The translations under genes and the position numbers were made by a program. Below, in pieces: positions 29,737-35,687 of a DNA stretch of 35,687 nucleotides. The notes under the pieces were generated by a model. It was not told where the DNA came from, made no database searches, and was given only the letters and a program-made list of their open reading frames with translations. The DNA is from a virus. Location of the stretch: the IMG/VR virus record IMGVR_UViG_3300015242_000033, positions 1-35,687 of that record. One strand, 5' to 3'. Within the stretch, counting starts at the first letter, position 1; each line of letters opens with the position of its first letter.

Positions 29737-29922
29737 ATGGAAAACCCAAAGGTAATTCTAGCTCACGCCACTGCCTACTGTGATGAACAATGGGGTATTG
29801 CTGAGAACGACCCCGAAAATCGGTTGACGCCAGAGCAACGTAAACAGGAAAGCCAAATCTGGCAGACTGCTGCTAGCATACTTGATTCTCTTGCGCAGGC
29901 CAGTGAGTTGCCACAGCCATGA
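29737..29922 (+). CDS. First gene of the rightward operon, small helical protein (61 aa)
   Basis: The ATG at 29737 has AAGGAG seven bases upstream and lies 23 bases after the -10. The product (MENPKVILAHATAYCDEQWG, then RLTPEQRKQESQIWQTAASI) is helical and acidic and ends in LAQASELPQP, a loose relative of the C-terminal tails seen on later genes. No family is recognised. It is coupled by ATGA to the next gene. Confidence 0.6.
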   Translation: MENPKVILAHATAYCDEQWGIAENDPENRLTPEQRKQESQIWQTAASILDSLAQASELPQP

Positions 29923-30245
29923 AACACGATACAAAAGGTGCTGACAGATTCAGGGTTTGCTACCTGGATAATCACGAGGAGCGGAAAGAAATGTTCGTGT
30001 ACGCTACAACGCTCAAGCAGGCCTTCATTAATGCCAAAGAATTGCTCAACTCCAAATTCGGCCAGAATTACCTCATAACAGATTGCCGCTTAGCTCCTGA
30101 TTTACCGATGCCCAGCCAAGAACAGGAAAATAATTATGTTGCATGGTGTCGGTTTTCTGCCCAATCTATCCAAACCTGCGATTCTGATGCTCCTGGGGCA
30201 TTTAAGGTCTACCGCTGGCCATTAGCCCCTAAGGAGCCAAAGTAA
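29919..30245 (+). CDS. Unknown protein (108 aa)
   Basis: A 108-residue protein starting MKHDTKGADRFRVCYLDNHE with strand-helix spacing (KEMFVYATTLKQAFINAKEL) and a Trp/Tyr-containing C-terminus (VAWCRFSAQSIQ). Its fold may be a small alpha-beta domain, but I do not recognise a family. Coupled by ATGA to the first gene and TAATG to the next. Confidence 0.55.
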   Translation: MKHDTKGADRFRVCYLDNHEERKEMFVYATTLKQAFINAKELLNSKFGQNYLITDCRLAPDLPMPSQEQENNYVAWCRFSAQSIQTCDSDAPGAFKVYRWPLAPKEPK

Positions 30246-30400
30246 TGGGCGCTCTTAAGTCTCCGGTTTGCTCGCAAGGCCATAAACTCAGCCCAACTAC
30301 CACATTCAAAAGGGCTAATGGCCAGCGGGAATGTAAGATTTGCTCGATGGCTCGCTCGAAAGCTTGGCGAGAGTCCCGCAAAGAACCAGCCAAAGCCTAG
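30245..30400 (+). CDS. Small zinc-finger protein like the HNH-associated finger (51 aa)
   Basis: Start ATG 30245 (TAATG with the upstream stop), stop 30398-30400. The product carries CSQGHKLSPTTTFKRANGQR then ECKICSMARSKAW (C9, G11-H12, C30, C33), the CxxGH...CxxC finger that many phage HNH endonucleases carry at an end. Here it stands alone, without an HNH motif. It ends in SRKEPAKA, shared with the gene at 31210-31347, and is followed by junction repeat B1. A nucleic-acid-binding accessory or an HNH remnant is likely. Confidence 0.6.
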   Translation: MGALKSPVCSQGHKLSPTTTFKRANGQRECKICSMARSKAWRESRKEPAKA

Positions 30401-30426
30401 CCCTTATAAGGAGGGATTTGCCCATG
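30377..30426 (+). repeat. Junction repeat B, copy 1
   Basis: About 50 bases spanning the end of the zinc-finger gene (encoding RKEPAKA and stop), a CTTATAAGGAGG ribosome-binding site, and the ATG of the next gene. It matches copy 2 at 31324-31372 with one single-base gap and one mismatch. Confidence 0.75.
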
Positions 30427-30903
30427 CTCGATAAGCTGCAACTCATTGATTGGTCAGAACGTTATCCAGAAGAATCTGCGCTAGAAATAGCTATCCGCCA
30501 ATCAACCGTTTGTCCTTGCGGTAAGCCAAAACAGATTGGTGAGCCAACTTGCGGCCATGTTATTGGCCTTCGCTCGCATGATGAGACGCCACAATGCTGT
30601 TGCAATGCCTCATGGTTGGATTTGAATATTGATGATTGCCCAATTCATGGGCTAAATGGAAAGAGAGAAAAGTTAGTGACCAAAAAGCAGAGATTGAATG
30701 TAGCTCAAAAGACTCTAGCGTTTGCTGCTGAACATTGGCCTATCGGGGAACTGGGGCAATTTACAAATTTCCGTTGCTCTTGTGGAGCTGTTTTGCAGGG
30801 CGTTACGCAATATACCAGAATCATTTCGTGGAAAGAACATATCCGCAATCTAAATATACAGCAGGCCAGCGAATCCACCACAGGCCAAAAAGGTGAAAAA
30901 TGA
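30424..30903 (+). CDS. Cys/His-rich protein, two candidate metal sites (159 aa)
   Basis: The frame opens further upstream (30340), but the start is ATG 30424 with TAAGGAGG just before it (junction repeat B1). The product (MLDKLQLIDWSERYPEESAL) has CPCGKP (30-35), CGH (43-45), CCC (58-60) and DCPIH (71-75). A second module has EHWP and CSCG (118-121) followed by ISWKEHI, a small HxxxxxxCxCGxxxxxWxxH pattern common in phage proteins. It ends with the tail QQASESTTGQKGEK. Zinc-binding is likely; the role is unknown. Confidence 0.6.
   Translation: MLDKLQLIDWSERYPEESALEIAIRQSTVCPCGKPKQIGEPTCGHVIGLRSHDETPQCCCNASWLDLNIDDCPIHGLNGKREKLVTKKQRLNVAQKTLAFAAEHWPIGELGQFTNFRCSCGAVLQGVTQYTRIISWKEHIRNLNIQQASESTTGQKGEK
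30859..30903 (+). repeat. Junction repeat A, copy 1
   Basis: Forty-five bases encoding the tail QQASESTTGQKGEK and ending in AAAAAGGTGAAAAATGA, which carries a ribosome-binding site and the ATGA start of the next gene. The first 32 bases are identical to copy 2 (31169-31200); copy 3 matches at 39 of 45 positions. Confidence 0.75.
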
Positions 30904-30989
30904 CTAATAGATTCAATGAGTTAATGAAAATTTTGCTGGTGCTAGCAGCTTTGGTTATTTGCTTTCTAATCGAAAGAAGTCTGCCATGA
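30900..30989 (+). CDS. Tiny membrane peptide (29 aa)
   Basis: ATG at 30900 overlaps the upstream TGA (ATGA) and is preceded by AAGGTG. The product (MTNRFNELMKILLVLAALVI, then CFLIERSLP) has a short basic start, one transmembrane helix and a charged end. It ends at TGA 30989, overlapping the next ATG. A holin-like or regulatory membrane peptide is possible. Supported by coupling and clear topology. Confidence 0.55.
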   Translation: MTNRFNELMKILLVLAALVICFLIERSLP

Positions 30990-31213
30990 CGAACATCCAC
31001 GATAGGCCGCTCGCCGTTGACGGTCTTACTTCATACAGATACAAGGGGCGTTATGGCTGGATTATGATTGGCGCAAAAAATGAGGCTGATGCGCTCCGCG
31101 AAGCTGCACGAAATACGACCGAGCCTATCCACATCTTGAATCTACAGGTTTGGAATGGTCGAAACTACCAGCAGGCCAGCGAATCCACCACAGGCCAAAA
31201 GGCTGTGAAATGA
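30986..31213 (+). CDS. Small unknown protein with repeated C-terminal tail (75 aa)
   Basis: The start is ATG 30986, overlapping the upstream stop by ATGA. The product (MTNIHDRPLAVDGLTSYRYK, then GWIMIGAKNEADALREAAR) looks like a small beta-alpha domain and ends in the shared tail QQASESTTGQKAVK. No family is recognised. It is coupled by ATGA to the next gene. Confidence 0.55.
   Translation: MTNIHDRPLAVDGLTSYRYKGRYGWIMIGAKNEADALREAARNTTEPIHILNLQVWNGRNYQQASESTTGQKAVK
31169..31213 (+). repeat. Junction repeat A, copy 2
   Basis: Encodes the tail QQASESTTGQKAVK and the ATGA overlap. The first 32 bases are identical to copy 1; the last 13 differ but keep an AAAGG-like ribosome-binding site. Confidence 0.75.
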
Positions 31214-31347
31214 GTGATTGGATTGCATATATTGAACCTCTCGGCTATGTAGAATCTATTTGCAGCTTTGACTGGCGAAGCTCTCACCGATCAAGATTTA
31301 GAACGAATTGTGGACTAGCCACGCGCAAAGAACCAGCCAAAGCCTAG
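31210..31347 (+). CDS. Possibly chimeric short protein ending in repeat B (45 aa)
   Basis: Starts MSDWIAYIEPLGYVESICSF at the ATGA overlap and ends in GLATRKEPAKA. In the +1 frame the same bases read AALTGEALTDQDLERIVD then a stop, which looks like the tail of a real protein. The gene may therefore have suffered a frameshift or been fused to the repeat-B end by recombination. If so, the present 45-residue product may not be functional. Confidence 0.45.
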   Translation: MSDWIAYIEPLGYVESICSFDWRSSHRSRFRTNCGLATRKEPAKA

Positions 31348-31372
31348 CTCTTATAAGGAGGATTTGCCCATG
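31324..31372 (+). repeat. Junction repeat B, copy 2
   Basis: Near-identical to 30377-30426: it encodes RKEPAKA and stop, then CTTATAAGGAGG and the next ATG, with one G fewer and one C/T difference. Confidence 0.75.
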
Positions 31373-31615
31373 AAAATGACGATTGGCAATATCAAGCGGG
31401 AACTCAGGACGGTAGCGCCGATGATTGCCCCGCAATCCGCTGGCCTTTGGGGAGATATGGTGTGCACGACCCTTCAAAACATTGAACTCGGCTGGAATGG
31501 CGGGCACCGCATGAGCGAGGGCGTTTTCAATCAAATGCATGAATATGGCATGGACAAAGTTGCACACGCCGCAGACCGCAGAGAAGCATTGCGTCAACGA
31601 CAGGCCAGCAAATGA
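31370..31615 (+). CDS. Small basic protein (81 aa)
   Basis: ATG at 31370 with AAGGAGG (part of repeat B2) about eight bases upstream. The product (MKMTIGNIKRELRTVAPMIA, then LQNIELGWNGGHRMSEGVF) is helical and ends in RQRQASK, a short relative of the repeat-A tail. No family is recognised. ATGA overlap with the next gene. Confidence 0.55.
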   Translation: MKMTIGNIKRELRTVAPMIAPQSAGLWGDMVCTTLQNIELGWNGGHRMSEGVFNQMHEYGMDKVAHAADRREALRQRQASK

Positions 31616-31845
31616 CGCGCTATCCACGAACAGATTTGCCGGCAGTAAAAGGCGACCCGTATATCTCTGTGAAAATATCGGTGAGTGATGACAGTTTTGA
31701 GTCTACATTCTCGATTCCAGTGACCGCCACGCCAGAGCAAATCAATTCCTTCACGAAGTCTTGGCTAGGTACGTTAGCAGAAGTCATTAAGTTCCCTAGC
31801 CAGCTGGCTAGGGAATCCCCCACAGGCCAAAAAGGTGCGAAATGA
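31612..31845 (+). CDS. Small unknown protein with repeat-A tail (77 aa)
   Basis: Starts MTRYPRTDLPAVKGDPYISV with ATGA coupling. The middle (VSDDSFESTFSIPVTATPEQ) is strand-rich, and the end is SQLARESPTGQKGAK, the third member of the shared tail family. No known family. Coupled by ATGA to the next gene. Confidence 0.55.
   Translation: MTRYPRTDLPAVKGDPYISVKISVSDDSFESTFSIPVTATPEQINSFTKSWLGTLAEVIKFPSQLARESPTGQKGAK
31801..31845 (+). repeat. Junction repeat A, copy 3
   Basis: Matches copy 1 at 39 of 45 positions, encodes the tail QLARESPTGQKGAK and the ATGA overlap with the next gene. The positions that differ keep the reading frame and ribosome-binding site. Confidence 0.7.
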
Positions 31846-32087
31846 GCCATGAAGATAGATTAGGTCATATCGTGACGCAGGCGGATATTGAAGCGGCGCT
31901 GGAAATTAAAGATGGCCTTAGGTATTTGCTGAATCGTATCGCGGCACTGGACGACAAATGGAAGCAGAGAGCGAAGAAGTTCCGGCGAGTTGGTTCACCT
32001 CATGCGGCGGCAGTAGTTGATGATTGCGTGCGAGATTTGCGGCGAGCGTTTCTAGAAGCGTTCCCAGCCAAGGAGGACTTTACCTGA
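31842..32087 (+). CDS. Small charged helical protein (81 aa)
   Basis: Starts MSHEDRLGHIVTQADIEAAL and continues with RYLLNRIAALDDKWKQRAKK, helical and rich in Arg, Lys, Glu and Asp, ending AFLEAFPAKEDFT. It may be a coiled-coil or nucleic-acid-binding protein. No family is recognised. ATGA with the upstream gene, TGATG with a possible 15-residue peptide downstream. Confidence 0.55.
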   Translation: MSHEDRLGHIVTQADIEAALEIKDGLRYLLNRIAALDDKWKQRAKKFRRVGSPHAAAVVDDCVRDLRRAFLEAFPAKEDFT

Positions 32088-32134
32088 TGAGCAGGCATGT
32101 TGCTGGCTGGCTGTTCGATAGAAAGGAAAATTAG
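32087..32134 (+). CDS. Possible 15-residue peptide
   Basis: ATG at 32087 (TGATG overlap) with AAGGAGG about ten bases upstream encodes MSRHVAGWLFDRKEN and then stops. It could be a real micropeptide, a leader, or the start of a degraded gene. Evidence is the ribosome-binding site and coupling only. Confidence 0.25.
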   Translation: MSRHVAGWLFDRKEN

Positions 32135-32167
32135 TTATGACTGAATACGAACAATATTGTCTCGGCT

Positions 32168-32638
32168 GTGCTGGGCATCTTAGCGCTTCTCGGGATGGAC
32201 TGGAAACTTGTACAAGGCAGGATTCCCGTGATTAGCCACCCTCGCGAACTGTGCGTACTAGCGCTCATACTTGGAAGTCTCACAATGTCAGGCATCGGCT
32301 GGTACAAGTTGCATCACTATGACGCGCTACACTTCCAATCCCTTAAGAAGGAAATTGTTTACGGAAAGACGTTCCGAAACGAAAAGGTGGAACTTGATGG
32401 GAAGTCATTTCAAAAATGTACGTTTACAAACGTGACATTTGTGTTTCACGGCCTAGCTCCATTTGACTGTGAAAATTGCCTAATTAATGGCTCCCGCTGG
32501 GTAGAAAGCGATAGTGATTCGGTTGCTGGCGCGTGGCTGCTGATGAAGTATATGGATTTTGTAAAACCAGATGCCCCCTTATACAAAAATGATTCTGGCG
32601 GAAATCCCGCACCTGTTCCTGATACGCCGCATGATTAG
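32168..32638 (+). CDS. Two-helix membrane protein with pentapeptide-like C-domain (156 aa)
   Basis: The chosen GTG start is uncertain. The frame is open from 32141 (reading NTNNIVSAVLGILALLGMDW), but the nearest ATG at 32137 is out of frame by one. Two hydrophobic segments (near the start and ELCVLALILGSLTMSGIGW) predict membrane insertion. The C-terminal part (KVELDGKSFQKCTFTNVTF, then LAPFDCENCLINGSRW) resembles a bacterial domain with an LDGxxFxxCxFxNVxxxxxG pattern. Function is unknown. Confidence 0.55.
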   Translation: MLGILALLGMDWKLVQGRIPVISHPRELCVLALILGSLTMSGIGWYKLHHYDALHFQSLKKEIVYGKTFRNEKVELDGKSFQKCTFTNVTFVFHGLAPFDCENCLINGSRWVESDSDSVAGAWLLMKYMDFVKPDAPLYKNDSGGNPAPVPDTPHD

Positions 32639-32901
32639 GCAGCATCTTGCACTTTGGCTGTTAGGTGTTTGTATTCAAGGTTTGGAGACAGAATTAGCTT
32701 GATGAGCGTATCGCGGAAAAGGAACTGATTCTTGCGGTTATTGAAGCGGAAACACATTTCGTCAAGGTAGGCAGGGAGATGCTTCGCAGAAACTTTATGC
32801 CATGTCCCCACAATGCCGCGCTTGAGCAGGGAACTAAAAAAGAACCAAGATTTCGTCTGCGTCAGCAAGGATGCTTTCATAAAGGCACATTTGGTAGGCA
32901 T
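32635..32901 (-). pseudogene. Degraded IS1595/ISXO2-type transposase C-terminus
   Basis: The minus strand reads SSLLKRGIVGTWHKVSAKHL and PAYLDEMCFRFNNRKNQFLF, then DTLIKLILSPNLEYKHLT, matching the end of ISXO2-like (IS1595-family) DDE transposases (GIESFWSLLKRG, GTYHxxSxKHLxRYxxEFxxRxN). Around 32845-32854 an extra A breaks the frame upstream of this block (DADE on one side, SWFFFSSLLKRG on the other), and no conserved catalytic domain precedes it. It lies antisense within the rightward operon between two phage genes, so it is a remnant of a transposon or captured host DNA. Confidence 0.75.
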
Positions 32902-35115: not shown

Positions 35116-35302
35116 ATGTAAAGTGATTTACGACCCAACAGTAGCCGCTAGGCCGTGGACGCCATACTGCCTGACCTGCCAAAAGCTAATCGGCGCTTGC
35201 CAATCCCAAGCCGATGCCGAATCGGTAATGAACAATCATTTACGTTGGATGGAGTTGCGAGATAACTATGAGAACGCCAGAACAAAAGAAACGCCACGCT
35301 GA
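35096..35302 (+). CDS. Small Cys-containing protein (68 aa)
   Basis: The ATG at 35096 has CGAGG upstream; the frame is open to 35027. The product (MSQNAHECKVIYDPTVAARP, then YCLTCQKLIGACQSQADAES) has CLTC plus further Cys and His residues, a possible zinc site, and a helical end. No family is recognised. It overlaps the HNH gene start by about 35 bases. Confidence 0.5.
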   Translation: MSQNAHECKVIYDPTVAARPWTPYCLTCQKLIGACQSQADAESVMNNHLRWMELRDNYENARTKETPR

Positions 35303-35687
35303 AATGGAACAGAACGCTCGCGATTTTGGGAGAGTAAAGCAGCGCCCATCCGCACATTTTAGGCACTGGCTGCGTTTCTGGAGCCATGTGGACAAGACTC
35401 CTACGTGCTGGAACTGGATAGGTTGTGCAGATAAAATTAGGGGATATGGCCAATTTAGTATTTGCTGCGTTACTCAAGATGCCCACAGGTTCTCCTATTC
35501 AATGTGCAAGGGACCAATTCCTCTTGGCTTAACCATCGACCATCTCTGCCGTAATCGAATTTGCGTCAATCCAAGTCACCTAGAGGCAGTCACGATGCGG
35601 GAAAATATATTGCGCGGTACAAGTCCTTGCGCCAACCATGCGAAAGCTACTCATTGTGCGAAAGGACATCCATTTAGCGGAGACAAT
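35268..35687 (+). CDS. HNH homing-type endonuclease, cut by window edge
   Basis: A 140-residue partial reading frame from ATG 35268 to the right edge. After a charged start it shows TCWNWIGCADKIRGYGQF and AHRFSY (72-77), then DHLCRNRICVNPSHLE (91-106), the HNH signature with the N/H pair and zinc-ligand Cys residues, and finally a CAKGHPFSGDN finger (130-140). This is the phage HNH endonuclease layout that cleaves near cognate sites and spreads by homing. The downstream part is missing from the window. Confidence 0.85.
   Translation, partial: MRTPEQKKRHAEMEQNARDFGRVKQRPSAHFRHWLRFWSHVDKTPTCWNWIGCADKIRGYGQFSICCVTQDAHRFSYSMCKGPIPLGLTIDHLCRNRICVNPSHLEAVTMRENILRGTSPCANHAKATHCAKGHPFSGDN

Follow-up and report, generated by a model that had tools for sequence, protein, structure and literature searches.

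The DNA stretch analyzed here (the window) is a single viral record of 35,687 bases, IMGVR_UViG_3300015242_000033, and its source is an uncultivated tailed phage. Up to about 29.4 kb, the minus strand encodes the virion proteins and the terminase, with a clear match for the large terminase and a marginal one for a P22-like portal; from there to the end of the window, the plus strand is occupied by small, tightly packed genes (the early region). The relatives that share its capsid protein and possess end repeats are 44–45 kb long, in comparison to 35.7 kb for the window; therefore, part of the early region is probably missing and this region is probably incomplete. Two families of short repeats, designated cassettes A and B, lie in it exactly at the junctions between genes:

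30245–30400, plus strand: small gene with similarity to the C-terminal portion of HNH endonucleases (PHROGs 826, E = 1.4e-7), ending inside B1
30377–30426, plus strand: cassette B, copy 1 (B1), with the tail RKEPAKA and a stop, an AAGGAGG ribosome-binding site, and its end at the ATG of gene 30424
30424–30903, plus strand: gene for a cysteine-rich protein of 159 aa, starting at B1 and ending in A1
30859–30903, plus strand: cassette A, copy 1 (A1), with the tail QQASESTTGQKGEK and the stop of gene 30424–30903, ending in the ATGA start of ORF 30900
30900–30989, plus strand: ORF for a hydrophobic peptide of 29 aa, started by A1
30986–31213, plus strand: gene of a widespread small phage and plasmid protein family (75 aa, SYRYKGRYGWIMIGA), ending in A2
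31169–31213, plus strand: cassette A, copy 2 (A2), with the tail QQASESTTGQKAVK and the stop of gene 30986–31213, ending in the ATGA start of ORF 31210
31210–31347, plus strand: ORF between A2 and B2, probably decayed (frameshifted), as judged by inspection
31324–31372, plus strand: cassette B, copy 2 (B2), with tail codons as in B1 and a ribosome-binding site, ending at the ATG of gene 31370
31370–31615, plus strand: gene for a protein of 81 aa, started by B2
31612–31845, plus strand: gene for a protein of 77 aa, ending in A3
31792–31815: perfect 24-bp palindrome TTCCCTAGCCAGCTGGCTAGGGAA, formed partly by A3 and partly by the DNA upstream of it
31801–31845, plus strand: cassette A, copy 3 (A3), with the tail QLARESPTGQKGAK and the stop of gene 31612–31845, ending in the ATGA start of gene 31842
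31842–32087, plus strand: gene for a protein of 81 aa, started by A3, with no family match

The order along the strand is thus B1, gene 30424, A1, ORF 30900 with gene 30986, A2, ORF 31210 and B2, followed by gene 31370, gene 31612, A3 and gene 31842. Cassette A is 45 nt long; it covers the final 14 codons of one gene and extends through the ATGA start of the next. Its three copies, each encoding a C-terminal tail and an overlapping ATGA start, were confirmed exactly where the preliminary description had placed them, with pairwise identities of 41, 39 and 38 of 45 nt (84–91%). The best ungapped self-match of the early region scored 38, whereas none of 60 dinucleotide-preserving shuffles exceeded 18. 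A profile built from the three copies recovered only those three; as to the weaker forms that had also been described, the site near 29922 (29895–29916) scored an insignificant E = 2.9 with this profile, and the gene end at 31615 was not matched at E ≤ 100. Cassette B, which had been overlooked, is a second junction cassette with 96% identity between B1 and B2. The two cassettes are unrelated in sequence and identical in geometry, each ending at a start codon. A GCCA motif found within 40 nt of 9 of 14 starts, against a background of 29%, proved to be largely produced by the A and B copies themselves.

The identity stops sharply at the cassette edges. Outside cassette A, the flanks are at background level (8–16 of 40 positions upstream and 10–13 of 40 downstream), and a comparison of the protein bodies without their tails revealed no similarity at a convincing E-value. 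The A-tailed proteins are thus not detectably paralogous, in agreement with the earlier claim that they are unrelated. Given this lack of similarity in flanks and bodies, either copying was confined to the junction or the genes to its left and right have been swapped. Searches for relatives of genes 30424 and 31612, and of gene 31370 in the phage collection, returned none. On inspection, another frame of ORF 31210 reads NLFAALTGEALTDQDLERIVD / LTGEALTDQDLERIVD and reaches a stop at 31317–31319, ahead of B2, so that the B2 tail in this ORF seems to be translated only via a frameshift.

Among the three A-tailed genes, only gene 30986–31213 allows a test of whether the tail is an addition, since genes 30424 and 31612 have no known relatives. 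Its relatives comprise 20 IMG/VR loci (53–66% identity), Pseudomonas phage ZRG1, in which the homologue is annotated as “KH domain-containing,” and seven plasmids. They align to the body of the protein, and the alignments end at query residues 57–66, with one at 71. In the 20 IMG/VR loci the protein ends a median of 4 residues past a conserved tyrosine (no more than 7 residues in 18 of the 20), whereas the protein of the window continues for 14 residues past it, the first of them encoded by the first codon of cassette A. The family thus ends soon after the tyrosine and the cassette begins at this very point, which indicates that A replaced the natural 3′ end of the gene. Judging from these alignments, the common tail is, in the one family that can be tested, an addition derived from junction DNA.

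The sequences before the start codons differ between the cassettes. The predicted anti-SD pairing is strong for B (−12.2 to −12.7 kcal/mol) and weak for A (−3.9 to −4.3 kcal/mol), the latter being comparable to that of several other starts in the early region. The ribosome-binding site that had been assigned to cassette A therefore holds only in a loose sense; given its ATGA overlap, A is more likely to promote re-initiation once the upstream gene has been translated. A1 and A2 agree at each of the first 32 nt; their four differences are all confined to the final 13 nt, which surround the translation start (hypergeometric p of about 0.005, calculated by hand). This pattern would fit if the left and right parts had separate histories, or if the start had been tuned to each gene. 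In A3, all three differences from A1/A2 within the first 12 nt complete the 24-bp palindrome, a pattern suggestive of template switching that corrected an imperfect palindrome.

Exact and degenerate scans of the viral contig collection returned no copy of cassette A. Its 26-nt degenerate core was unmatched in the genome contig collection, and on this basis a host-derived repeat was rejected. Blast against phages gave only chance-level partial matches for A (E ≥ 3) and no match for B. Cassette A was absent from all relatives searched, and start-anchored repeats of the A/B kind were absent from eight near-complete relatives, except for the end repeat of one of them (G012). The expectation that the element would recur at gene ends in related phages was therefore not borne out, and in everything searched it occurs in this contig only. 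Likewise, no pair of phages with a common boundary and different adjoining genes was found in the viral contigs, genome contigs, phage records or relatives. This absence is no proof of uniqueness, as records very near the window may lie outside the searched set. The terminase relatives have about 50% identity. The capsid protein relatives (G011–G023, L105–L128) are 67–78% identical to the window in this protein and only 30–38% identical in their terminases, which implies that modules were exchanged between related phages, with replacement of the packaging module.

Based on these results, we consider it probable that A and B are short cassettes of two families that are located at gene junctions and were multiplied by recombination within a variable early region. 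Signs of turnover in this region include an ISXO2 transposase remnant, an HNH endonuclease and the probably frameshifted ORF; in addition, the early plus-strand ORFs of the window were sought in the relatives with the 67–78% identical capsid protein and none were found there. Each cassette would comprise the final codons and stop of the gene to its left, a region for translation initiation, and the start codon of the gene to its right. We infer that the copies are recent and were made via ectopic recombination or gene conversion of just 45–50 nt; an equivalent route would be crossovers inside the cassette, bringing different genes to either side. For the downstream gene, this would provide a ready-made translation start that overlaps the stop of the preceding gene or lies near it (an ATGA overlap in the case of A). 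The upstream gene would have its 3′ end replaced, leaving a presumably neutral tail of 14 residues (A) or 7 residues (B). Several points speak against this reading: neither a target-site duplication nor a dedicated recombinase was identified; the addition of the tail could be demonstrated for only one of the three A-tailed genes; the predicted ribosome-binding site of A is weak, so that a translational benefit is not evident for this cassette; and the searches found no copy of A outside the contig, and hence no before/after pair showing the swap.

Several described systems resemble the cassettes. Conserved boundary sequences have been put forward as sites to which homologous recombination between modules of phage genes is directed (PMC3233612, PMC3029335). 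A and B are likewise short conserved DNA lying precisely at the junctions of unrelated genes in a mosaic genome; however, their copies are found within one genome only, whereas boundary sequences imply mosaic exchange between phages, and they extend into the coding sequence and add a tail. The earlier interpretation as a boundary element thus stands as far as the anatomy is concerned (gene-junction position, unrelated genes, added tail) and falls short with respect to exchange between genomes. The SAS/ESAS repeats of cluster K mycobacteriophages are located at gene starts and their role is unexplained (PMC3203893); SAS are 13 bp long (GGGATAGGAGCCC), lie a few nucleotides before the start codon, occur in 11–19 copies and are conserved between phages (PMC3203893). 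They share with A and B a position upstream of unrelated non-structural starts in one orientation, and SAS sometimes contain the upstream stop codon. However, A and B are 45–50 nt long, are present in three and two copies, include upstream codons and are not conserved in relatives, and by inspection the 13-bp SAS is absent from both. Promoter early stem-loops (PeSLs) are described as mediators of gene shuffling in T4-type phages (PMC4503421) and are also short repeated cassettes between small variable genes, with shuffling proposed to proceed by homologous recombination. They differ in combining an early promoter with a stem-loop, whereas A and B span the stop and start codons of adjoining genes and contain no evident promoter or terminator. 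A and B lie on overlapping or near-adjacent genes, and their predicted folds are weak, save for the A3 palindrome. Overall, the cassettes resemble these three systems in place, and not in sequence, size or composition.

The preliminary description had also raised the possibility of a peptide tag for protein sorting or degradation, a suggestion that gains no support from our analysis. A 14-residue tag under protein-level selection for sorting, binding or degradation is favored by the fact that the three A copies share both their reading frame and the position of the stop. However, seven of the 14 tail codons differ between the copies in DNA and five of them also in the residue (Q/L, S/R, T/P, G/A, E/V/A), so that silent changes account for just two of the seven; in small numbers such as these, this is close to the 77% of amino-acid-changing codons expected for random substitutions. 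The differences are thus mostly non-synonymous, as by chance, with no sign of constraint at the protein level, and no conservation of amino acids beyond what recency of the DNA would give was found among the three copies. The terminal residues vary as well (GEK, AVK and GAK), the relatives of gene 30986 have no such tail, cassette B supplies a different one to other genes, and that of B2 sits in the probably frameshifted ORF. We therefore regard a selected tag as highly improbable.

Alternatively, the cassette might be a regulatory site under selection, similar to SAS, at which a factor of host or phage origin would bind, on either the DNA or the mRNA, and co-regulate early genes. A and B share with SAS the start-codon location, the non-structural half of the genome, the single orientation and the unrelated downstream genes, and A1 and A2 preserve the SD itself less well than the core that precedes it. 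This alternative is nevertheless unlikely, though worth keeping in mind: three and two copies in an incomplete contig contrast with 11–19 SAS per genome, no relative conserves the cassettes, and recency alone accounts for the identity of A1 and A2. An origin as the remains of a tandem or segmental duplication, in which a larger unit was duplicated and everything but the junction decayed or was replaced, would agree with copies lying less than 1 kb apart in one orientation; furthermore, the relative G014 contains a gene (41120–41420 / 41812–42081) that is a patchwork near-duplicate of its neighbor, with unrelated DNA between the matching blocks. Yet the flanks are at background identity against 84–96% in the sharply bounded cassettes, and the order B-A-A-B-A with its unequal spacings requires several events, which leads us to consider such an origin improbable. 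Finally, A and B could be self-spreading start-of-gene cassettes, with a phage process such as cutting by an HNH endonuclease plus recombination inserting or swapping early genes. We find this very unlikely; if it were true, the seams would constitute a modular landing-pad array for gene capture.

A long-standing question is whether the mosaicism of phage genes results from random joining or from the guidance of short homologous boundary sequences, and to our knowledge most mosaic joints carry no boundary DNA. Read as junction cassettes, A and B would offer two unrelated boundary elements young enough to be read, with their effect on protein ends visible. They give the impression of seams in the DNA, caught at one moment, at which phage genes are exchanged, and not of a working protein tag; a common C-terminal tail on unrelated phage proteins should not necessarily be taken for a functional tag. 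Further genomes containing the cassettes, if found, would make the model of guided mosaicism directly testable.

Some further observations concern mobile elements and repeats in the window and its relatives. An HNH_3 endonuclease gene, truncated at the contig end, is located at 35268–35687 (plus strand), and gene 30245–30400 resembles the C-terminal part of such enzymes. Amid the early genes, the remnant of an ISXO2/IS1595 transposase lies at 32635–32901 (minus strand) and corresponds to the C-terminal part of the enzyme (Pfam DDE_Tnp_IS1595, E = 2e-8); the relative G001 has a full-length-looking ORF at 31548–32465. Numerous palindromic repeats, for example GGGATCCCTCGACTCCGGTCTGCAAAATGCGCAGACCTCCGCTCGGGATGACAAT and CCTCACCCCTGAAGGGGTGAGCTACA, are interspersed in the terminase relatives L006–L046 (e.g., L009 and L014), and several of these repeats lie within long structural ORFs and are apparently translated; they were rejected as equivalents of A and B owing to this location inside structural ORFs and the lack of any evident sequence in common. 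G014 (L113–L115) carries 47-bp near-identical in-frame repeats within two different genes (771–817 and 1797–1843, as oriented), which were rejected as a counterpart because they lie mid-gene and not at starts. In another phage, L143 (1000–1057 and 2033–2092; also in L145), a weak repeat (74%) of the ribosome-binding-site region ends just past two start codons, near a relative of gene 30986.
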